This document shows positions 1,836 through 63,474 of a stretch of DNA of 64,000 bases, in pieces (positions within the stretch are counted from its first letter, which is position 1; the number at the start of each line of letters is the position of its first letter). The stretch is from an uncultured Gemmatimonadota bacterium. Its GTDB lineage: Bacteria; Gemmatimonadota; Gemmatimonadetes; Gemmatimonadales; Gemmatimonadaceae. A program made the translations under genes and the position numbers. The notes under the pieces are model-generated. The model was not told where the DNA came from, made no database searches, and was given only the letters and a program-made list of their open reading frames with translations. The DNA lies in NCBI GenBank assembly GCA_902826615.1, contig CADEFN010000006.1:124001-188000 (forward strand), read 5' to 3'.

Positions 1836-2588
1836 ATGCGGCCGCTCATCACCCTCCTGACCGATTTCGGTACCGCCGACGGATACGTCGCCGAGATGAA
1901 GGGGGTGCTTTACTCGCTGGTGCCCGACGCGACCGTCGTGGATCTCTCGCACGACATCCCCGCGCATGACGTTGAGCTCGCACGCCTGACCGTGGCGCGC
2001 TACTGGCGGCGCTTTCCTGCCCGCACCGTGCATCTCGTGGTCGTCGATCCCGGTGTGGGTACCACGCGCGCTGCACTCGCGGTGCACGCCGACGGGCGTT
2101 CATTCGTCGGACCTGACAATGGGGTGCTCTCACCGGCGCTCCTGCTCGGCGATGCACAGGCGGTGGTGCTCCCCGTGCCTGCGGCCGTGTCACGCACTTT
2201 TCATGGTCGCGACGTCTTTGCCCCGGCGGCGGCGGCCCTGGCCAGCGGGGCGCCGGTACAATCGTTAGGCGAAGCCGCCGTGTCACCAGTGGTCCGTCGG
2301 ACACGTGAGCCGACCCGCCGCGAAGATGGCGCCATTCTCGGCGAGGTCATTGCCATCGACCGCTTTGGCAACGCCATCACCAACCTTGTGGGTGTGCGGG
2401 CTGGTGTGGTTGCCGCGGCCGGACGTCCGGTGCCGGTGCGTGCGACCTATGCCGACGTGGCCAGCGGCGCGCCGGTGGCGCTCACCGGCTCAAGTGGTCT
2501 GCTGGAGGTGGCCGTGCGAGACGGAAGCGCACACAGCACCCTCGCCCTCAAGCGAGGTGATGTGGTGGTGTGGTACCGACCGTCCTGA
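1836..2588 (+). CDS. SAM hydroxide adenosyltransferase (DUF62 family)
   Basis: 250-aa protein of the DUF62/SAM hydroxide adenosyltransferase family, which hydrolyses S-adenosylmethionine to adenosine and methionine and is related to fluorinase/chlorinase. Seen: N-terminal LLTDFGTADGYVAEMKG with the conserved Asp, HDIPAHD, VVVDPGVGT and GPDNGVL, all in the expected order. It starts with ATG 9 bases after mrp and is probably co-transcribed. The true halogenases carry a distinct loop that cannot be judged here, so the hydroxide-using activity is a family-level call. One CGTTAGGC motif lies at 2263. Confidence 0.85.
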   Translation: MRPLITLLTDFGTADGYVAEMKGVLYSLVPDATVVDLSHDIPAHDVELARLTVARYWRRFPARTVHLVVVDPGVGTTRAALAVHADGRSFVGPDNGVLSPALLLGDAQAVVLPVPAAVSRTFHGRDVFAPAAAALASGAPVQSLGEAAVSPVVRRTREPTRREDGAILGEVIAIDRFGNAITNLVGVRAGVVAAAGRPVPVRATYADVASGAPVALTGSSGLLEVAVRDGSAHSTLALKRGDVVVWYRPS

Positions 2589-2595
2589 TCAGGGC

Positions 2596-3636
2596 CTAAC
2601 GACCGCTCCCGGCGTCGACCGTTGGTCGAGTGGGTCGCCGGGCGGCCACGACACCCGCAACGGGGGTAGGTGTCTGCCAGCCGGCATCGCTGGCCGGCGC
2701 GGGAGCCGTCACCACTGAAGCGTCGCGACGCGTTCCCCCGCGCGAGAGAATCGCTGCACCGAAGCCAGCGGTTGCCGCCACGAAGGTCGCGGCCAGCGCC
2801 AGAAGACGCACAACGGTCCCTGCGACGGCGACGTCATTGAGGGCGGCGGCCAGGAGCCAGAGCCCCATGTAGATCAACAGGCCCACAAACACACCACGCA
2901 GCGAACTGCCCCGCGCACCGAGTTGTGCCGTGCGGCGACCCGCCAGGCCACCGCCGGTCAGCCGTGCAACGGCCACAAAGCCGAGCGTCGCCAGCCCCGC
3001 AACGGCCAGTACCACCGCGACAATCGCGAAGGGAATGAGCAGCACCCCAATCACGGTGATCGCGAGTGCCACGATGACCAGCAGAATTGCGGGCAGCACA
3101 CCGAGTTCACCCAGCAGGCCCACGGAGAACGAGCGCCAGAACGACTGCTCGAGTACGTCGACCACACCTTCGAGGTATGGGCTCGCGAACACCAGCACGC
3201 CCAGGCCAATCACCATCATGACGGTGAGCCACCCGAGAGCGAGGCTCATCGGGGAGCGCGGTTCGACGGGTTTGACGTCGCCACCGTTCAGCAGGGAGCG
3301 CACGGAGGCGCCAAACGTACCAGTCAGTGGCCGAACGGCACCACCGATCTTTCCCTTGTTCAGGACATCGCCAAAGGCTGCGATCGCGTCGCCCGTGACC
3401 CGTCCCGAGCTGTCCACGACGACATCACCGGCAATCGCGATCGCCGAACCCTCGATGGTACCACGCACCACCAGATTGCCCCCGGCAACCACCACGGGAC
3501 CCTGGACAGTTTGACCGGCCGCGACTTCACGACCACCAAGTGTGAGGGAATCGGGGGTGACCTGCGCGGCCGCAAAGCGGACGAAAGACAGCACAACGGC
3601 CGCCGCGGCGGTCGCCCGTAACACCAGTCGACGCAT
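2596..3636 (-). CDS. Polymer-forming (bactofilin-like) membrane protein
   Basis: 346-aa envelope protein. The N-terminus is a signal peptide ending in FAAAQ; next come short beta-type repeats (VVVAGGNLVVRGTIEGSAI, GDVVVDSSGRVTGDAIAAFG) like those of polymer-forming/bactofilin-type proteins, then several hydrophobic helices (residues about 150-310) and a low-complexity tail. Start ATG 3636 has GGAGG seven bases upstream; an earlier in-frame start is possible but lacks this site. It begins 2 bases after the anti-sigma gene, so it is the third gene of a sigma/anti-sigma operon and a plausible regulated or sensing component (inference). The stop is embedded in a CGTTAGGC motif. Confidence 0.75.
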   Translation of the reverse strand: MRRLVLRATAAAAVVLSFVRFAAAQVTPDSLTLGGREVAAGQTVQGPVVVAGGNLVVRGTIEGSAIAIAGDVVVDSSGRVTGDAIAAFGDVLNKGKIGGAVRPLTGTFGASVRSLLNGGDVKPVEPRSPMSLALGWLTVMMVIGLGVLVFASPYLEGVVDVLEQSFWRSFSVGLLGELGVLPAILLVIVALAITVIGVLLIPFAIVAVVLAVAGLATLGFVAVARLTGGGLAGRRTAQLGARGSSLRGVFVGLLIYMGLWLLAAALNDVAVAGTVVRLLALAATFVAATAGFGAAILSRGGTRRDASVVTAPAPASDAGWQTPTPVAGVVAARRPTRPTVDAGSGR

Positions 3637-3637
3637 G

Positions 3638-4273
3638 TCAAACCCTCCGGGGTCGACCAGCGGTGGCGACTGACTTGACCCCGAGCGCGACCACCCCAAC
3701 ACCAACCGCACCCGCGGCGAGTGTCCCCGAAATGGCCAGAATGCCTCCGTTCTGGATGGCGGTGGCCATCCCTTCGCCGAGCAGAGCTGTTGCGCCTGAC
3801 GTGACCCCGCTCACGAGGGCGTCGCGCAGCCGCTGTGCCCCCAGACTTCCCAGGAACACCATGGCGTCGGCCCGCTGCCCAACCCAGACCGCGGCGGCTG
3901 AGAGCGTGACCGCGGCAACACCGCCCGTCGCGCCAACCAGGACCCGCCCGACGCTCGACTGCGGGATAAAGCTCCTGACCGAGTTTCGGAGGGCAACGTG
4001 CCAGGGCTCGAACACCTGCACCTGCGCCATGACCCGCTCACCAAAGAGGGGCCGGGGCGCCAGGAGCGGGAGACCCTCCAGTTGGTCGACCACGACGGCC
4101 AATCGGGCAAATTCGGACTGGCACTGGGCACACTCCTCGAGATGCGTCCGGAGCGGCGCAACGCCGAATCCCTCCTCGTCATCGAGGAGAAGATCGATCT
4201 CGTCAGGGAGTAGGTGTCGGTGTTTCACATGGCCTCCAAGTCGTCTACGACCAAGGGTGGTGACTGGTTTCAC
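3638..4273 (-). CDS. Anti-sigma factor with zinc-finger motif
   Basis: 211-aa membrane anti-sigma factor. The N-terminal domain has the zinc-binding HLEECAQC (H-x3-C-x2-C) motif typical of ZAS-type anti-sigma factors, followed by a hydrophobic segment (about residues 110-130) and a second one near the C-terminus. The GTG at 4273 overlaps the TGA of the sigma gene (GTGA), indicating translational coupling. An alternative GTG at 4228 has GGAGG four bases upstream and would remove 15 residues; the conserved domain begins only there. It should hold the adjacent ECF sigma factor inactive at the membrane. Confidence 0.85.
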   Translation of the reverse strand: MKPVTTLGRRRLGGHVKHRHLLPDEIDLLLDDEEGFGVAPLRTHLEECAQCQSEFARLAVVVDQLEGLPLLAPRPLFGERVMAQVQVFEPWHVALRNSVRSFIPQSSVGRVLVGATGGVAAVTLSAAAVWVGQRADAMVFLGSLGAQRLRDALVSGVTSGATALLGEGMATAIQNGGILAISGTLAAGAVGVGVVALGVKSVATAGRPRRV

Positions 4274-5798: not shown

Positions 5799-7277
5799 GT
5801 GCCTTTCAACGACCTCCAATCATTCATAGCCGCCCTCGACGCCGCGGGTGAGCTGGTTCGCATCAAGGTGCCGGTGCGCGTCAAGCTCGAGGCGTGCGAG
5901 ATCATCGACCGGGTGAGCAAGATGCCGGGCGGGGGAAAGGCGCTGCTGTTCGAGCACCCGATCCTCGACGACGGCACCAGGTCGCCGTATCCCGTGGCCG
6001 CCAATCTCTTCGGTTCCTGGCGGCGCATGTCGATGGCGTTAGGCGTGGAGCGACTCGATGACATCGGTGGGCGCATCACGCAGATGATGGACCTCAAGGT
6101 GCCCGACGGTTTCATTGCCAAACTCGGGCTGCTCCCACGTCTGCTTGAACTCTCCAAGTTTCCGCCCCGCAAGAAAGGGGGCTCGCCGCCGAGTCAGGAA
6201 GTGGTGTGGACGGGCCGCCAGATCGACCTCTCCAAGCTCCCGGTGCTCACCACCTGGCCCGAAGACGGCGGTCCCTATCTCACGCTCACGATGGTGATCT
6301 CCAAGGATCCCAAGCGGGGCATCCGCAATGTGGGGATGTACCGTGTGCAGGTGATCGGCAAGGACAGCGTGGCCATGCACTGGCAGCGGCACAAGGTGGG
6401 TGCGGCGCACTGGCGCGAAATGGCGGAGCGGGGCGAGAAGATGCCGGTGTGCATCGCGATCGGTGCCGACCCGGCGTCGGTCTATTCGGCGTCGGCGCCC
6501 CTGCCGCCTAACGTGGACGAGTTCATCTTTGCCGGCTTCCTGCGCAAGGAGCCGGTGGCGCTCACCAAGGCCATCACCTGTGATCTGGATGTGCCCTGGG
6601 ACGCCGAGATCGTGATCGAGGGAGAGATCGACCCTGCGGAAGCCCTCATCACCGAAGGACCATTCGGCGATCACACCGGCTTCTACAGCGAAGCCGATCT
6701 GTACCCGCGCGTGCAGGTGAAGGCAGTGACGATGAAGAGCAATCCCGTCTATGCCTGCACCATCGTGGGGCGTCCTCCCATGGAGGATTTCTACCTGGGC
6801 GGAGCCACGGAGCGCATCTTCCTGCCGCTGCTCAAACTCACGACGCCGGAAGTGGTCGACTATCACATGCCGGCCGAAGGCATCTTCCACAATCTCGTCT
6901 TTGTCTCCATCGACAAGCAGTATCCCGGTCAGGCCTACAAGGTGATGAACGCCTTGTGGGGCGCGGGGCTCATGTCGCTGGCCAAGGTGATTGTGGTGCT
7001 CGACAAGGAAGTGAACGTGCGCGATCCGCAGGAGGCCTGGTGGGTGGCGCTCAACAACATGGATCCGGAACGCGACGTGCGTTTCACGATGGGCCCGGTG
7101 GATGTGCTGGACCACGGCAGCCGCGCCTTTACCTACGGCTCCAAGATGGGGATCGACGCCACGCGCAAATGGCCTGAGGAGGGCTTCACGCGCAACTGGC
7201 CCAAGGTGATCACCATGGACGCTGACACCAAAGCCCGCGTCGACGCCCTCTGGTCGTCGCTTGGCATTCCTCGTTAG
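5799..7277 (+). CDS. UbiD-family prenylated-FMN decarboxylase (menaquinone pathway)
   Basis: 492-aa UbiD-family decarboxylase, full length for the family (GTG start 5799). UbiD enzymes use prenylated FMN, made by UbiX, to remove an aromatic or alkenyl carboxylate. Seen: conserved stretches EGPFGDHTGFY and a C-terminal ITMDADTKARVD. Its partner UbiX gene is two genes downstream, with a UbiA prenyltransferase in between. Without menB/menE-type genes here this arrangement fits the futalosine route, where the equivalents are MqnL (UbiD), MqnP (UbiA) and MqnM (UbiX); that is inference. The stop CGT-TAG lies in a CGTTAGGT motif at 7272. Confidence 0.88.
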   Translation: MPFNDLQSFIAALDAAGELVRIKVPVRVKLEACEIIDRVSKMPGGGKALLFEHPILDDGTRSPYPVAANLFGSWRRMSMALGVERLDDIGGRITQMMDLKVPDGFIAKLGLLPRLLELSKFPPRKKGGSPPSQEVVWTGRQIDLSKLPVLTTWPEDGGPYLTLTMVISKDPKRGIRNVGMYRVQVIGKDSVAMHWQRHKVGAAHWREMAERGEKMPVCIAIGADPASVYSASAPLPPNVDEFIFAGFLRKEPVALTKAITCDLDVPWDAEIVIEGEIDPAEALITEGPFGDHTGFYSEADLYPRVQVKAVTMKSNPVYACTIVGRPPMEDFYLGGATERIFLPLLKLTTPEVVDYHMPAEGIFHNLVFVSIDKQYPGQAYKVMNALWGAGLMSLAKVIVVLDKEVNVRDPQEAWWVALNNMDPERDVRFTMGPVDVLDHGSRAFTYGSKMGIDATRKWPEEGFTRNWPKVITMDADTKARVDALWSSLGIPR

Positions 7278-7301
7278 GTCGCCCCTGTTACCCGCTGCGC
7301 T

Positions 7302-8201
7302 GTGACCACTCCCGTTCGCGAAGGGCAGACCTACGCCGGCACGTCGCGGTTGGTGCAGTATGCCAACTTCGTCAAGCTGCCCCACACCATCTTTGCGCTC
7401 CCCTTTGCATTGGTCGGGGCAACCCTGGCGAGTTATCACGCACCGGTGACGATGGCGATGGTGGGCTGGATAGTGCTCGCCTTCACGTCGGTGCGGTTTG
7501 CGGCCATGGGCTTCAACCGGGTGGTCGATCGTGACGTGGATGCCGCCAATCCGCGCACACGCATGCGGGAGATCCCGAGTGGTGCCCTGGGTGTGCGTGA
7601 GGCGGTGGCGGCCATCGTGGTGGCCTGCGGGCTTTTTCTCTGGGCGTCGTGGCAGCTCAATCCGCTGTGTGGCAAGCTGTCACCACTCGCACTCGCCTGG
7701 GTCTGTTTCTACAGCTACACCAAACGTTTCACCCGCTGGTCGCATCTCGTACTCGGCTTCGGCTTGTCGATTGCGCCCGTGGGTGGTTACCTCGCCGTGT
7801 CAGGGGTCTGGCCCGATCCCTTCTGGATGCCCCTCGTCCTCTCGCTCGCCGTGACCACCTGGGTGGCAGGTTTTGACGTGTTGTATGCGCTGCAGGACAT
7901 CACGTTTGATCGGGAGCAGGGACTGCATTCCATCCCCGCCATGTTCGGCGAAACACGCGCCATCACCATTGCCCGGGTCCTGCACCTGGTCACCGTTGTC
8001 TCTCTGGCAACTGTGGGTGTGGCAACGGGCGGTGGGTGGCTGTACTTCGTTGGGGTTGGCATTGCGGCGTTGTTGCTTGGCTACGAGCACTCACTCGTGA
8101 AACCCGGCGACCTATCCAGGCTCGACGCGGCCTTCTTCACCATGAACGGCATCATCAGCATCGCATTCTTTGCCTGCGTGCTCGCCGAACGTCTTGCCTG
8201 A
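7302..8201 (+). CDS. UbiA-family prenyltransferase (menaquinone pathway)
   Basis: 299-aa integral membrane prenyltransferase with about eight to nine hydrophobic helices. The two Asp-rich substrate and Mg2+ motifs are present: NRVVDRDVDAANPRT (around base 7515) and DVLYALQDITFDREQG (around base 7880). It attaches a polyprenyl tail to an aromatic acceptor. GTG 7302 starts 24 bases after the UbiD gene. Position between UbiD and UbiX suggests it acts on 1,4-dihydroxy-6-naphthoate or a related acid, as MqnP does; the acceptor is not readable from sequence alone. Confidence 0.88.
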   Translation: MTTPVREGQTYAGTSRLVQYANFVKLPHTIFALPFALVGATLASYHAPVTMAMVGWIVLAFTSVRFAAMGFNRVVDRDVDAANPRTRMREIPSGALGVREAVAAIVVACGLFLWASWQLNPLCGKLSPLALAWVCFYSYTKRFTRWSHLVLGFGLSIAPVGGYLAVSGVWPDPFWMPLVLSLAVTTWVAGFDVLYALQDITFDREQGLHSIPAMFGETRAITIARVLHLVTVVSLATVGVATGGGWLYFVGVGIAALLLGYEHSLVKPGDLSRLDAAFFTMNGIISIAFFACVLAERLA

Positions 8202-8210
8202 GGAGATGCA

Positions 8211-8825
8211 GTGACTCTGCCCATTGTTGTTGCGATTACGGGGGCCTCGGGAGCGCCGTACGCCGTGCGTCTGATCGAGTCGCTCGTGGCCGCTGGCCGT
8301 CCCACCTGGCTCATCGTCAGCGGGCACGGGCTCCGGCTGCTCAGCACGGAGATGGGCATGGCGTCAATCGAGGCGCTGCGTGCCAAGGTGGGCCAGGCGG
8401 GCTGGGATGCTCATGTGCGGGTGTACGACGATGCCGACCGCGGGGCCGCGCCAGCTTCGGGCTCCACTCGTCACGGGGGCATGGTCATCTGTCCCTGCTC
8501 CATGGGAACCGTCGCGGCGGTCGCGCATGGCACGTCGCGGTCGCTGGTGGAGCGCGCCGCCGACGTCACCCTCAAGGAGCGGCGCCGCCTCATCGTGGTG
8601 CCACGAGAGACCCCGTACTCCGAGATCCATCTCGACAACATGTTGCGGCTCACCAGGGCGGGGGGCATCGTGCTCCCGGCGTCGCCCGGGTTCTATCATC
8701 AGCCCGCGCAGATCGACGACCTCGTGAACTTTGTCGTCGCGCGCATTCTTGACCTGCTCGACGTCGAACACACACTCGTCAGGCGGTGGGGTGGCACACC
8801 CGACGCCCTCTCGCCCGATGCCTGA
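8211..8825 (+). CDS. ubiX: UbiX-family flavin prenyltransferase
   Basis: 204-aa UbiX-family flavin prenyltransferase, which prenylates FMN to make the UbiD cofactor. Seen: VVAITGASGAPYAVR at the N-terminus (FMN-binding loop), ICPCSMGTVAAVAHG in the middle, and RLIVVPRETPYSEIH, all hallmark UbiX stretches. The GTG start has GGAG a few bases upstream. It lies 9 bases after the prenyltransferase and overlaps the following phosphoesterase by 8 bases, so the operon appears tightly coupled. Pairing with the UbiD gene upstream supports one shared pathway. Confidence 0.92.
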   Translation: MTLPIVVAITGASGAPYAVRLIESLVAAGRPTWLIVSGHGLRLLSTEMGMASIEALRAKVGQAGWDAHVRVYDDADRGAAPASGSTRHGGMVICPCSMGTVAAVAHGTSRSLVERAADVTLKERRRLIVVPRETPYSEIHLDNMLRLTRAGGIVLPASPGFYHQPAQIDDLVNFVVARILDLLDVEHTLVRRWGGTPDALSPDA

Positions 8826-9309
8826 CGCGATTGTCATCGGTCTCATCTCCGACACGCACGGGCAGGTGCGCCCCGAGGTCCACAAGGCCCTTGCCGGCGT
8901 CTCGCTCATCCTGCATGCGGGCGACGTGTGTGGTGACGATGTGCTCGATGAACTCGGTCTGATAGCGCCCGTGCTGGCGGTGGCTGGCAACTGTGATCCG
9001 CCAGGTGACCCGCGACTCGTCGGTCACATCGAGCGCACCTTTGACGGGGTGCGTGTGCACGTCAGTCATGGGCACGAGCTGGGCGCACCGACCCCGGAGA
9101 AGTTGCTGGCTGCCTACGATGCCGACGTGATTGTGTACGGACATACACACCGGCAGCTGGTGACACGGGCGGGAGGGCGCCTGGTGGTCAATCCGGGGGC
9201 CGCGGGTCCGCGGCGATTCGACCTTCAGCCGAGTGTGGCGCGCTTGACCATTCGTGACGACCGAGCCGACGTGGAGATCATTCCGATCGTCGTGTCAGGT
9301 TCCGCCTAA
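8818..9309 (+). CDS. YfcE/MJ0936-type metallophosphoesterase
   Basis: 163-aa calcineurin-like phosphoesterase of the small YfcE/MJ0936 type. Metal ligands are visible: GLISDTHG, LHAGDV, AVAGNCD, VSHGHELG and YGHTHRQ. Members hydrolyse phosphodiesters in vitro; a physiological substrate is unknown. ATG 8818 overlaps the end of ubiX by 8 bases, which decides the start. Its 3' end overlaps the convergent minus-strand nuclease gene by 15 bases, inside a GCCTAACG motif (9304). Confidence 0.88.
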   Translation: MPDAIVIGLISDTHGQVRPEVHKALAGVSLILHAGDVCGDDVLDELGLIAPVLAVAGNCDPPGDPRLVGHIERTFDGVRVHVSHGHELGAPTPEKLLAAYDADVIVYGHTHRQLVTRAGGRLVVNPGAAGPRRFDLQPSVARLTIRDDRADVEIIPIVVSGSA

Positions 9310-10419
9310 CGCCTGCGGCGGAACCGTCGCGTCGAGTTCTTCCGGTCGAGTCGTGAACCACGAGGTGAGTAACAACAGCTCATCCACCTCGTGTGCCGGC
9401 ACCGCGCCAGCAGCCAGCTCGTGGGCGCGGAACACGTCACGCACCCGCTGCTCCAGCGCCCGCCATTCTTCCGGTGTTTGGGGTGTCTGCTGTTCGTGCC
9501 GCACCACACCGCGGCGCACCACATAACACCGGTCCTCTCCCTCGTGCCCGGGCACGAGATAGACAAACGAGAGCGATTCCACCGCAAAACGCAGACGCGA
9601 AAAACGCGCGACCAGGGCTTCGAGGCGCTGCATCCGGTCCCGCAGGATACCGGCGCGTTCATACTCCATGCGCCCGCTGGCCTCGCGCATCGCCTGATCG
9701 AGACGCGACAGGGGTTTGTCAGAGGCACCTTCCAGAAACTCGCGCGCCTCGCGCACCCGTTGCCCGTACACCCGCGCGGTGGCGGCGCCCACACAGGGCC
9801 CAAGGCAGGTGCCGATTTCAAAACGCAAACATCCCGGCGTCCGGGCCGGGAGTTGGATCAGGTCCATCTGATCGGCAAAATGCATCTTGCCGTCGAGCGT
9901 GCAGTCGCGCAGGCCGAGCGCGATGGACAGCTCGCGGAGTGCCTCGCGCAGGTGAGCCGCACCGACAAAGGGCCCGTAGTAGACGCCGCCTCGCTCCGAG
10001 GCACCGGTGCCTCGCACCACCGTGAGCCTAGGCGCCCGCCCGCCCGTGAGACGCACAAAACATTGATTGCGAGCATCGCGTTTTTGGGCCACGTTGAGCC
10101 GCGGACGCAGCGACTTGATCAGCCGCAGTTCCTCGCGAAGCGCCGCAAACTCGCTCGGGGTGTAGTGCCAGCTGATCTCATGCGCCTCGCGCACAATGCG
10201 GGCCGATTTCTCGGCGGGGTACTCCGCCCGAAAGTAGGACAGCAGACGCGAGCGGAGGCGCTTGCTCTTGCCCACGTAGGCCACTTCACCGGTCTCCGTG
10301 ACCATGCGATACACGCCGGGCCGGTCTTCGGCGCCCGCGCGCACCACGCCACGCAACGCCTGCAGCCGAGCCGTGTCGGCGCTCGAATCGCGGCGCGTCA
10401 GGACTGGCATCGGTGGCAA
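9295..10419 (-). CDS. UvrC-N/Cho-like GIY-YIG endonuclease
   Basis: 374-aa homologue of the N-terminal half of UvrC. The GIY-YIG domain reads PGVYRM...AYVGKSKRLRSRL (residues about 35-60), followed by the conserved region YYGPFVG, a Cys-containing PGCLRFEIGTCLGPC stretch, and a UVR motif (LDQAMREASGRMEYERAGIL). The RNase H-like and HhH domains of full UvrC are absent, so it resembles Cho, which makes only the 3' incision in nucleotide excision repair. Translation overlaps mutM by 22 bases, which places it in a purD-mutM-nuclease operon. A second in-frame ATG at 10410 could also serve. Confidence 0.8.
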   Translation of the reverse strand: MPPMPVLTRRDSSADTARLQALRGVVRAGAEDRPGVYRMVTETGEVAYVGKSKRLRSRLLSYFRAEYPAEKSARIVREAHEISWHYTPSEFAALREELRLIKSLRPRLNVAQKRDARNQCFVRLTGGRAPRLTVVRGTGASERGGVYYGPFVGAAHLREALRELSIALGLRDCTLDGKMHFADQMDLIQLPARTPGCLRFEIGTCLGPCVGAATARVYGQRVREAREFLEGASDKPLSRLDQAMREASGRMEYERAGILRDRMQRLEALVARFSRLRFAVESLSFVYLVPGHEGEDRCYVVRRGVVRHEQQTPQTPEEWRALEQRVRDVFRAHELAAGAVPAHEVDELLLLTSWFTTRPEELDATVPPQALGGT

Positions 10420-59974: not shown

Positions 59975-60179
59975 CCGATCCGTGAGGGCGGCGGCCATGG
60001 TGTCGTCGCCAAGGAGCTCGCCCCAGTGTTCAAACGGTTTGTTGCTGTTCAGGACCAAGGCCGCGTGCTCCAAGCGGCGGGCTCATGAGCTGAAAGAAGA
60101 GCATGGCCCCGGTGCGATTTATGGGGAGGTAGCCGATCTCGTCGATGACCATGTCAAGTGAAGGACGCTCAAACGATTG
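59975..60179 (-). pseudogene. istB: IstB remnant (IS21-family ATPase), frameshifted
   Basis: A fragment of the IS21-family helper ATPase. One minus-strand frame reads VIDEIGYLPINRTGA followed by MLFFQLM (60,090-60,155); after a frameshift the homology continues as ALVLNSNKPFEHWGELLG then DDTMAAALTDR (59,975-60,075). Both halves match the order of intact IstB (Walker B, then SNK...W...LTDR). The 5' end, terminal repeats and istA are absent, so this is an old decayed copy. Confidence 0.85.
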
Positions 60180-60965
60180 GGTGCGCCTCGACTATGAGCG
60201 GATGCGCGTCGTTCGCCAGCTGCAGACCGTTCACCCACCGCCGCTTGGTCGCGCCTCAGTGCGGCGACGCGCGTCCACGCCGCCGCTGCGAGACAAGCGA
60301 CCGTCGTCCTGCGGGACCGTTGCCGGCGCGAGACGAAGTTCGGCGCCGCTGTCACCGATCCACGCCGGCGAGCCGCGCCACCAAGCTGGTGAGACCGACC
60401 ACTCCGTCCGTTCCGCACGACACCCTGTCGCTGAGCCACGCCACTCGGAGTCGGTGACACCCCTCGCGGTCATGGATCGCCTGGATCGTCTATGTTCACA
60501 GGGGTCCTCTCCATCGGTTGCGCCAACGCGGACGCCGCGATTCTCGCTTGGTACCGTGCGACCTGGATCTGCGCCGCCATGACGCGCCCTGCGACCACCG
60601 CGCCAGCGGCACAACCCCCGCTGCACGCGCAATCACCACTGTTTCATGGCGGGGACCACTTGTCTGTCCGGGACACGACCACCGATACAGCATCGCCCCA
60701 CGACCGCACAGCGTTGACATCCTGATGAACGGCACGGAGCCACCAACGCCAGATACTCGTCCACCCGATCACGTGGCGCGATCGGGTTCGCACAGAGCTC
60801 GTCTGCACCGAACCGGACTTACTCAGGCACATCCCGCGACTCATCCCGGTCGTCCCGCGACTACGCATCGCTGACCGCAGCGCAGCCACCGTTGCACGCG
60901 TCTGATCCACGCATTGCCGACACGGGTCCGGACGTGCCCGCGCCTGGTCAACCGTGAACGCGCCG
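60180..60965. other. Gene-poor stretch between istB remnant and the 21-bp array
   Basis: 786 bases with several short open frames on both strands but none with recognisable protein features. A weaker run of CAC triplets spaced 18, 21, 21 and 21 bases (60361-60444) suggests that the periodic array once extended leftwards, out of phase with the main one. No RNA gene or terminator is seen. Confidence 0.5.
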
Positions 60966-61872
60966 CCGCAGTCGATGCATGCGCCGCTGCAGTCGATGCA
61001 CGCGCCAGCGCAGTCGATCCACGCGACACCGTGGTCAATGCACGCGGCGCAGCAGTCGTTGCATGCGACGTGTCGCCTCGTGTACGCGGCTCGTCAACCG
61101 CTGCACGCACCAGCGTGCGCCGTTCACGGGACAGCGTCAGACGATCTCGCGGCAATGCATCCGGGACACGCGACGCATCCGCGCTTTCACGTGGCAGGGC
61201 GCGCTATTCACGAAGCAGAGCTCACCCTTCACCAGGCAGAGCGCAACATTCACCCGCCAGTGTCAGACGCTCATGCGCCTGTGCGGAGTGATCCGGCGCC
61301 TGATCGTCTCGCGCACGCAGCTCGTCACGAAGGGCACGCGACGCATCCTTCTGCGCACACGCCGCATCCATTCGGTCAGGTGGCGGAGCGCCTCTTACAC
61401 GGGGCGCGTTCACTGTCGCACGTGACACGACCGCCCCGTCAGACACCAGCACGCGCCGTTCACCAGGCAAAGCGCCGCGTTCACGTGGCAGAGCGCGGCA
61501 TGCACGCAACGGCGCAGAGTGATCACATGACTGATCCGGTCGTCCACGGCCCTCGGCAGGACGATCACGCGCTGTGTCACGACGATCACGCGCCGTGTCG
61601 CCCCGTGCACCTGGAACAACCGTCGCGTCACGAGACAGCGCGTGACGAGCACGCGGCAGCGCAGCTCGTGCACTCGGCAGCGCGCGCCGTTCACGAGGGA
61701 CTGCCAGACGATCTCGCCGCTGCGCACGACGTACACGACGGAGCGCGCGCCGTTCACAGAGCAGAGCGCTACATTCGCGGATCAGAGCGCACCGTTCACG
61801 AGGCAGCGCGCAATGATCACGCGTCCGTGCTGGTCGTTCACGAGGCAGCGCGCGCCGTTCACGTGACTCGTC
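60966..61872 (+). repeat. 21-bp-phased degenerate repeat array, 43 units
   Basis: Forty-three consecutive 21-base units with no indel that changes phase. In the frame beginning at GTG 60954 (stop at 61884-61886) each unit is a heptad with His at the fourth place in 36 of 43 units; the seven exceptions (Tyr, Leu, Pro, Gln, Gln, Leu, Arg) mostly differ by one base from a His codon. His is CAC in 33 of the 36. Typical units are QSMHAPA, RAVHQAK, RTVHEAA. Long open frames on other strands follow from the period. No ribosome-binding site is seen. Could be a protein, a phased DNA-binding array or a structural DNA element; not identified. The 212 bases after it are featureless. Confidence 0.8.
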
Positions 61873-62098
61873 GGCGCAGCACTTGAAACGGTCTAACGCA
61901 CGCGGCCAGAAACACCTGCATCGACCACACACCCTTGCCATTGCTGCACGTCAAAGCTCTGACCCAAGGCCGTACGCACTCGGTGGGGAGGGCGTGGGCG
62001 TGGCAACCTCCCACCGTCGCCTCCGCCAGCCTGAGTCGTTCGTCGCCTGGCGGGGCGGTCTCTTCGTCATGACGGCGCGCCTCGCACGCGAACGGACG

Positions 62099-63343
62099 TC
62101 AATTGCGCTGGGGCTCTCGCCACTGGTCCGCGAGAAAATCCTGCCAGGTCATAGCTCGGATGCCGGCTCGCAGTCCGACCTCGCGCGATGCCTCACCACA
62201 GATCAATAGTGGCTGGAAAGAGGGATGACGGCGGACAAACTCGAGAAGCCCCCTCAGGTCGCCGAGACCCACGTGACCTGTCTTTACTTCGATCGCCCAC
62301 GAGCCCCATGAGCCATCGAGTACCGCGTCGACTTCGAGCGGTTCTTCGCGCCAGTACCGCACCCGCTGCCCCGCATTCCACGCGTGCGCCAGGCAGGCGT
62401 TCTCCACCCGCGCGCCGAACAGCGCCGGGTCGGTCACGGTGTTACCCGCGCCTGATCCGCCCTGAGCCGCAAGGAGCGCGTTGCTCAAGATGACGAGTTT
62501 GGGAGGGGCGGCACGCTGGCGCAGCATGCGTGTGGAGTATTTCTCGAGGCCAGCCAGGAGAAAGGCGTCTTCGAGTAGCGTCAGGTAGTGTGCGATGGTC
62601 TCCAGTGCACCCGCATCATGGAGTTGTCCTTTCAATTTCTGAAGGGAGACCACCTGGGCTGGGGAGGCGACGGCGGCTGCGAAGACCTGGCGCAACAGGC
62701 CCGGTCGCCGAATGTCATGCGCCGAAAGAAGATCGCGACCGATAGCGGGCTCGATGATCGCATCTCTCAGGTACGTGGCCTTTCGGACCGCATCCATTCC
62801 TGACTTCACGAGGCCCGGATATCCTCCCCATTGCACGATCATCTCCACGGCGTCTGCAAGCGACATCTGAAACACATTGGCAAGTGATTGTGCGTTCCAG
62901 TGGGGAAATACCAGGCGCTCGAATCGCCCGGCCAATGTCTCCCGCGATCCTCTCCCCAGATGGAGCGCCGAGGAGCCCGTGGCAATCACCTGGATCGGAA
63001 GCTTCCGCCGTCGCACCCGGTCCCATTGGCTCTTGAGCCTGGACGACCACTCTGGGAGCAAGTGCACTTCGTCGAGGAGGAGTACCTGTGGAGCCGTGGC
63101 AGCCCGTTGCTCGACCGCACTCCAGAGTTGCTCCCACCACCCGGGAATCATCGCCTCCGGCCCGTCGCAAGCGGCGTAGGTCGCCCGCGGCCCCAGCGAC
63201 TCGGCGAGGCGCAGCAACAGGTGGGTTTTTCCAACCTGCCGAGGACCGGCGATGAGTTGAATGCGCCCCGGGGCAGGCTCGTCCATGCGGTCCATGAGGA
63301 GGCCGAAGCCGCCGACCGGGTCCAGGCGGAGATTGTCAGGCAT
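62099..63343 (-). CDS. AAA ATPase with DUF4143-type C-terminus
   Basis: 414-aa ATP-binding protein of the widespread AAA/DUF4143 group. Walker A AGPRQVGKTHLLLRL (residue about 35), Walker B VLLLDEVHLLP, an STGSSALHLGRGSRETLAG-like sensor region, and a C-terminal domain with WREEPLEVDAVLDGSWGSWAIEVKTG resembling a PD-(D/E)xK-type fold (D...EVK). ATG 63343 begins MPDNLRLDPVGG. Its role is unknown in general; it is the nearest gene to the repeat array and istB remnant. The palindrome at 63347 covers its upstream region. Confidence 0.88.
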   Translation of the reverse strand: MPDNLRLDPVGGFGLLMDRMDEPAPGRIQLIAGPRQVGKTHLLLRLAESLGPRATYAACDGPEAMIPGWWEQLWSAVEQRAATAPQVLLLDEVHLLPEWSSRLKSQWDRVRRRKLPIQVIATGSSALHLGRGSRETLAGRFERLVFPHWNAQSLANVFQMSLADAVEMIVQWGGYPGLVKSGMDAVRKATYLRDAIIEPAIGRDLLSAHDIRRPGLLRQVFAAAVASPAQVVSLQKLKGQLHDAGALETIAHYLTLLEDAFLLAGLEKYSTRMLRQRAAPPKLVILSNALLAAQGGSGAGNTVTDPALFGARVENACLAHAWNAGQRVRYWREEPLEVDAVLDGSWGSWAIEVKTGHVGLGDLRGLLEFVRRHPSFQPLLICGEASREVGLRAGIRAMTWQDFLADQWREPQRN

Positions 63344-63346
63344 ACT

Positions 63347-63360
63347 CGAATAATTATTCG
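63347..63360. promoter_or_regulatory. 14-bp AT-rich palindrome at the ATPase start
   Basis: CGAATAATTATTCG is a perfect palindrome ending 3 bases before the ATG (63343), in otherwise GC-rich DNA. Its position over the Shine-Dalgarno region or -10 suggests an operator, possibly for autoregulation; on the minus strand TAATTAT could also be a -10. Confidence 0.6.
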
Positions 63361-63474
63361 GATACACCCGACAAACAAGGACGCCAGGAAGCGGGGTGAG
63401 TGGGTACCAACAGCAGTCGAGGTCCACTTCTCGCTAGATTGGGGGAGACGGCGCCCCACAAGGAGTCCAATCCG

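Follow-up and report, generated by a model that had tools for sequence, protein, structure and literature searches.

An orphan 21-bp tandem array in a Gemmatimonadota genome belongs to a family of noncoding arrays linked to one gene family

In the plasmid partition systems ParMRC and TubZRC, iterated centromeres lie beside a small adaptor gene, and the repeat sequences are specific to the replicon. Iteron plasmid origins carry iterons of 17–22 bp beside rep. CsrB and RsmZ are structured small RNAs, which act in trans and titrate CsrA by means of spaced GGA loops. The specificity of ParR is treated in PMC9426499. In type III toxin-antitoxin systems, the ToxI and CptI repeats are pseudoknots of 36–45 nt, and ToxN and CptN are Kid-like (PMC4627078). 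AbiF has a noncoding RNA upstream of its protein gene (PMC12373285).

The array described here lies in a stretch of 64,000 nucleotides from an uncultured Gemmatimonadota bacterium, referred to below as the window, and is a noncoding element of a family of 21-bp arrays that is linked to one gene family. The array family resembles parC of ParMRC and tubC of TubZRC in having iterated direct repeats beside the gene of a small protein (the adaptor in those systems) and replicon-specific repeats. It differs from them in having no conserved motor gene (actin- or tubulin-like NTPase), no plasmid match and up to nine copies per genome. A tblastn search for carriage of the protein family by plasmids and phages gave no match, and neither did IMG/VR. 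With iteron origins it shares a repeat length close to two turns of DNA and a position next to a gene, but there are far more repeats here and several copies per genome, and no match of the family protein to a Rep initiator was found in Pfam or NCBIfam. With CsrB/RsmZ and CsrA it shares the presence of many copies of a motif for one small protein, but the arrangement here is a rigid 21-bp tandem, mostly in cis. The comparison with type III toxin-antitoxin systems and AbiF is closer to the question of mechanism and is taken up below.

The core of the window array occupies positions 60954–61877 on the forward strand, and consists of 44 in-phase units of 21 bp with a consensus of about GTTCACGCGGCAGNGCGNNNC. 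Autocorrelation over 60966–61872 gives an identity of 0.555 at lag 21 and of 0.48–0.52 at lags 42–126, compared to only 0.13–0.32 at lags not near a multiple of 21. The 21-bp period proposed by a sequence-only reading of this DNA is therefore present. Tandem Repeats Finder returns several rows of period 21 at the array, and at the threshold used for a survey of 392 kb of context it is the sole repeat in the window. Column information is highest at unit positions 4–6, 11 and 16 (C-A-C, C and C), while several of the remaining columns carry almost none. The same reading had counted histidine in 36 of 43 heptads, mostly encoded as CAC and usually followed by G. A listing of the units, counted from the second, gives the same 36 (33 CAC and 3 CAT), with G after CAC in about 77% of units. 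It had also claimed that no indel breaks the phase, which holds inside the core and fails upstream of it, where weaker units, shifted to phases +2 and +1, can be followed as far as about 60767. Indels of 1 bp do therefore occur at the decayed end of the array. This decayed 5′ extension (60767–60953, forward strand, phase +2 and then +1) was located by profile scan and by lag-21 autocorrelation, in which the onset of the signal falls at about 60691–60881.

An open reading frame of 310 residues (60954–61886, forward strand) runs through the array. The frame is indeed free of stops, as had been noted, but this is unremarkable: when columns are permuted among units, at least one of the six frames stays open in 13% of shuffles, and the array's own frame does so in 3.7%. 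A GC-rich repeat whose period is divisible by three is expected to leave long frames open. It had been suggested that the frame encodes a protein of 7-residue repeats. The 310 open codons, the multiple of three, and the fact that a second copy of the array in the same genome (C16) is also open would all fit such a protein. The remaining evidence goes against it. Between the window array and the C16 copy dN/dS is 0.91, a value that is imprecise because it rests on 37 changes but with which all the other lines of evidence agree, and the substitutions are spread evenly over the three codon positions (11, 14 and 12). No purifying selection on a translated frame was found in this comparison. In 35 gene-linked arrays, stop counts are close to the shuffle expectation and not depleted, and the related 21-bp arrays found by a translated-array search of this genome and its relatives mostly carry stops in the aligned frame. 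The conservation of the window units from column to column is not codon-like, and a Pfam search of the 310-residue frame gave no match. We judge the open reading frame spurious: a translated heptad-repeat protein is extremely improbable, and the frame is very probably accidental. It is worth adding that period-21 arrays yield long spurious reading frames, which annotation may call repeat proteins.

The arrays L009 and L010, from the same genome as the window, are immediately followed by paralogous genes, which encode proteins of about 240 residues. An alignment of 18 members of this protein family (A1) was used as a profile against 298 genomes, all of them from Gemmatimonadota. The gene was found in 35 of these (about 12%), from two taxonomic families and with up to nine copies per genome. 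With 30 periods tested (11 to 40) and regions oriented on the gene, 44 of the 59 upstream regions have 21 as their top period (binomial p about 2e-52), but only 6 of 59 downstream regions and 6 of 61 gene bodies do. The 392 kb of context holds 20 copies of the gene. Of the 16 repeats next to them, 15 have a best period of 21 or 42 and the other has 41, as against a best period of 21 or 42 in about 6 of 46 repeats elsewhere. The array is placed upstream, from about −50 to −1200 relative to the gene. A clear array is missing from the 1.3 kb tested in about a quarter of gene copies.

A cyclic 21-state model describes these arrays as roughly 120–1000 bp long, with a consensus unit that is specific to each locus. 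They have about 7–45 units, which are nearly uniform in some arrays and strongly diverged in others. In 35 arrays (about 778 units) the phase is broken 40 times, at a median divergence between units of 0.47. With so few phase breaks at so high a divergence, the conserved quantity is the length of the unit and not its sequence. An array acting at the level of nucleic acid, which the sequence-only reading had offered as no less plausible than the protein, is thus the version that survives: the arrays are noncoding, recurrently linked to one gene family, and keep a length of 21 bp across differing units.

The motif of the window units matches those of L009, L010 and L017 with similarities of 0.91, 0.81 and 0.74, all on the same strand although any rotation or strand was allowed, against a shuffled baseline of 0.30 with a 95th percentile of 0.43. 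The proteins of L009 and L017 are 56–57% identical to that of L010, and motif similarity within this trio is 0.68–0.81, again on the same strand. Over all pairs of loci the correlation between motif similarity and protein identity is weak (rho 0.16), and proteins that are 50–70% identical have a mean motif similarity of 0.38, compared to 0.30 for shuffled motifs. Unit motifs therefore turn over quickly, and co-evolution of motif and protein is a lead and not a demonstration. It also follows that the proposed CACG-centred array describes one subfamily (the window, L009, L010 and in part L017), while other loci have unrelated motifs. Two further features were looked for within the units and set aside: a half-unit periodicity of 10.5 bp is absent, and palindromic units occur in only 4 of 38 loci.

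The window array is an orphan and not a complete module. The partner gene is absent beside it, being found in this genome only at C14, C1 and C6:386k, and the pattern scan for the leader pseudoknot described below gives no match in the window. On the side where linked loci have the partner gene, the array is flanked by a gene for an AAA_14/DUF4143 ATPase (62099–63427, reverse strand). The genome contains at least six arrays (C14, C6:387k, C1, the window, C16 and C4), as counted with an array motif model that was applied to a restricted set of candidates in each genome. Those at C14 and C6:387k are directly upstream of family genes, the C1 array is about 2 kb from a family gene, beyond an operon, and the window, C16 and C4 arrays have no gene. 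The window orphan is perhaps a dispersed site, or a relic. The C1 and C4 arrays (L153 6590–7560 and L176 590–1930) lie in what seem to be duplicated blocks, alike outside the repeat units too, one of these lookalike blocks having the family gene 2 kb away and the other being without it.

The window array forms part of a block (60326–61867, forward strand) that is duplicated at G000:C16 (L008, about 6786–8306) with 93% nucleotide identity. Adjoining the block is the relic of an IS21 IstB-type ATPase gene (59985–60162, reverse strand), a frameshifted remnant matching PF01695 in two pieces (E=7.7e-10 and 9.6e-4). At C16 the array copy stops abruptly, and repeated GCCTGTCCGAGATTTTGTGTGTGAGGCC blocks are found at L008 8306–8560, together with a short ORF start that resembles a truncated insertion sequence and has no Pfam match. 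The two array copies are one whole 21-bp unit and 37 substitutions apart, and the array has diverged less than the flank upstream of it (37/893 vs 45/627, Fisher p=0.011). This suggests some constraint on the array, but could also reflect conversion.

On a rival reading the arrays have no function. A neutral or selfish satellite could arise by slippage, unequal exchange and copying, and be tolerated in a promoter region, the window copy then being a mere duplicate. The range from homogeneous to diverged arrays, the fast turnover of motifs, the existence of arrays with no gene, and the deletion of one whole unit between the window and C16 copies are all in keeping with such an origin. It does not readily account for recurrent placement next to the same kind of gene in two taxonomic families, for a unit of 21 bp each time and not of various lengths, for so few phase breaks at 47% divergence, or for the lower rate of change in the array than in the flank. 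We therefore regard a neutral satellite as quite unlikely.

In one branch of the family, a GC-rich hairpin is found between the array and the start codon. Its loop contains GGACGC, which pairs with GCGTCC, located 6–20 nt beyond the stem and just before the Shine-Dalgarno sequence, to give an H-type pseudoknot. The sequence of the stem varies among loci with the pairing kept, and three loci show covariation in the loop helix (GGGCGC/GCGCCC at two and GGGTGC/GCACCC at one). Because the variable arms of the stem were misaligned by MAFFT (A4, A5), the count of pairs was taken from the pseudoknot decomposition. When 0.5 Mb was scanned on both strands for the pattern, it matched 11 times, of which 10 are immediately upstream of a family gene and one is in a low-complexity tract. 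Since pairing of the stem was itself selected by the search, more weight falls on the constant placement, the covariation of the loop helix and the specificity of the scan. No common pseudoknot motif was found in the second taxonomic family (f2). On the basis of its position beside the Shine-Dalgarno sequence, the pseudoknot most likely controls translation of the family protein. At L014 (about 2040–2200), an array and a pseudoknot, recognised by eye, are followed by a truncated family gene with a stop after about 26 codons, which has the appearance of a decaying module.

The family protein has a basic core (median pI 10.2), which fits a nucleic-acid binder. The AlphaFold2 model is confident (mean pLDDT 87.6) and shows a bundle of helices, two of which are 57 residues long. 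In the 18-member alignment the only invariant columns are F18, L38, G132, D184 and W201. The protein has no match in Pfam, NCBIfam and PHROGs return insignificant matches only, and PADLOC returns none; no recognised DNA-binding domain was found, and there is no ribbon-helix-helix or winged-helix match. Nothing passes E<=0.001 in Foldseek, and what the structure searches find is limited to generic coiled coils and bundles. The VIA-align Z scores reach 9.6, short of the recommended value for helical bundles (about 13), and no fold is therefore assigned. Apart from the family gene itself, no gene family is common to all 22 contexts examined. Within the subfamily to which the window's genome belongs, helix-turn-helix, sigma-region-2-like and DUF2188 genes recur nearby.

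The order of the parts recalls type III toxin-antitoxin systems (ToxIN, CptIN, TenpIN) and AbiF, with which the present loci share upstream tandem repeats or noncoding RNA, a structured RNA element and locus-specific repeats. The system might thus be an RNA module of this kind, in which a transcribed repeat RNA restrains the downstream protein, and the pseudoknot controls read-through or translation. The repeats lie upstream of the gene as in ToxIN and CptIN (PMC4627078), and AbiF likewise has its noncoding RNA upstream (PMC12373285). The pseudoknot abuts the Shine-Dalgarno sequence, its stem is followed at L097 by T6 in a terminator-like arrangement, and the protein is basic. However, type III repeats are bound by their own RNase, whereas here there are 21-nt, mostly unstructured units, one pseudoknot beside the Shine-Dalgarno sequence, and an unrelated protein that is predicted to be all-helical. 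There is no general signal of RNA folding or covariation inside the units (mean fold z of −0.8 in sense and −0.4 in antisense), in contrast to the 36–45-nt pseudoknot repeats of ToxI and CptI, although the L122 and L126 arrays are strong folding outliers on the gene-sense strand (z of −6.2 and −3.6). A pseudoknot fold of each repeat unit was not found, the single pseudoknot being outside the array, and an Rfam search of arrays and leaders matched only a tRNA (six loci). Searches of the 18 members in Pfam and PADLOC gave no match to the ToxN, CptN or TenpN endoribonucleases and none to Abi_2, and the HEPN R-x4-H motif is absent from the invariant columns. For these reasons the family is not filed with type III systems or AbiF, although it may work in a similar way. 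In addition, there is no obvious reason to place the orphan arrays, or the C1 array at its distance of 2 kb, in the transcript of the gene, and a lattice on single-stranded RNA needs no identical unit length at every locus. An RNA module of this type is in our view unlikely, though less so than a neutral satellite.

Linkage alone cannot separate a function as DNA from one as RNA. We favour DNA because 21 bp corresponds to two helical turns, because the spacing is kept as the sequence changes, because the arrays mostly lack RNA structure, and because some of them are away from the gene. This last point follows from the distant C1 array and the three orphans, which imply that an array need not be in the mRNA of the gene. 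We hypothesise that the family protein binds the arrays in a 21-bp register, more probably as double-stranded DNA than as RNA. With two helical turns per unit, every unit would be presented on the same face of the DNA, and the bound protein could form a cooperative nucleoprotein patch. The pseudoknot would act against the ribosome-binding site to tune synthesis of the protein, and orphan arrays such as the window copy would be extra sites in trans or decaying relics. We give this account as a whole, from orphan array to pseudoknot, a probability of roughly 0.4. The rapid divergence of motifs between proteins that are 50–70% identical would be unusual for a conserved binder unless its specificity co-evolves. 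The scarcity of palindromic units, the missing half-unit periodicity, the failure to recognise a DNA-binding domain in the protein and the gene copies with no clear array also speak against this account. A more specific proposal, rather doubtful but worth stating, is that a small basic helical protein is paired at each locus with a co-evolving 21-bp array and a dedicated pseudoknot, the orphans being further sites of action, in a lattice for chromosome organisation, segregation or the marking of self and non-self.

The linkage of array and protein, with a pseudoknot between them in one branch, suggests a system of array and protein that is new to the literature. The gene has no match in the family libraries that were searched, and no description of such a system was found in openly licensed papers. 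What had looked like an odd minisatellite becomes a testable module of three parts, namely array, pseudoknot and protein. Its novelty lies in the combination and in the lack of known relatives, the function itself being a proposal. Should the arrays act as DNA, they would represent a new nucleoprotein lattice or centromere-like element of bacteria; should they act as RNA, the system would be a new kind of RNA–protein pair with a very long repeat array. In either case, unrelated sequences with an identical 21-bp spacing raise the question of what reads the spacing rather than the sequence.

Some further observations concern the surroundings of the arrays. In genome G024 (L030, L037, L042, L044 and L045) the family gene is present in as many as nine copies. 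Several of these are near-identical, and contigs start at or inside them, which has the look of a recent expansion. The idea that the contig ends in this genome reflect the arrays was dropped, since some contigs begin inside near-identical gene copies. At L009, a gene resembling that of a rolling-circle replication protein (identified by eye) and a tRNA (2175–3869 and 567–652) are found within a few kb of the array, and these surroundings suggest an integrated mobile element. Finally, copies of a short inverted repeat, GAAACCTGTTTC, are found close to arrays and ahead of the family gene (L153 about 6900–9500, L010 about 8780); this repeat may be an operator or promoter element.
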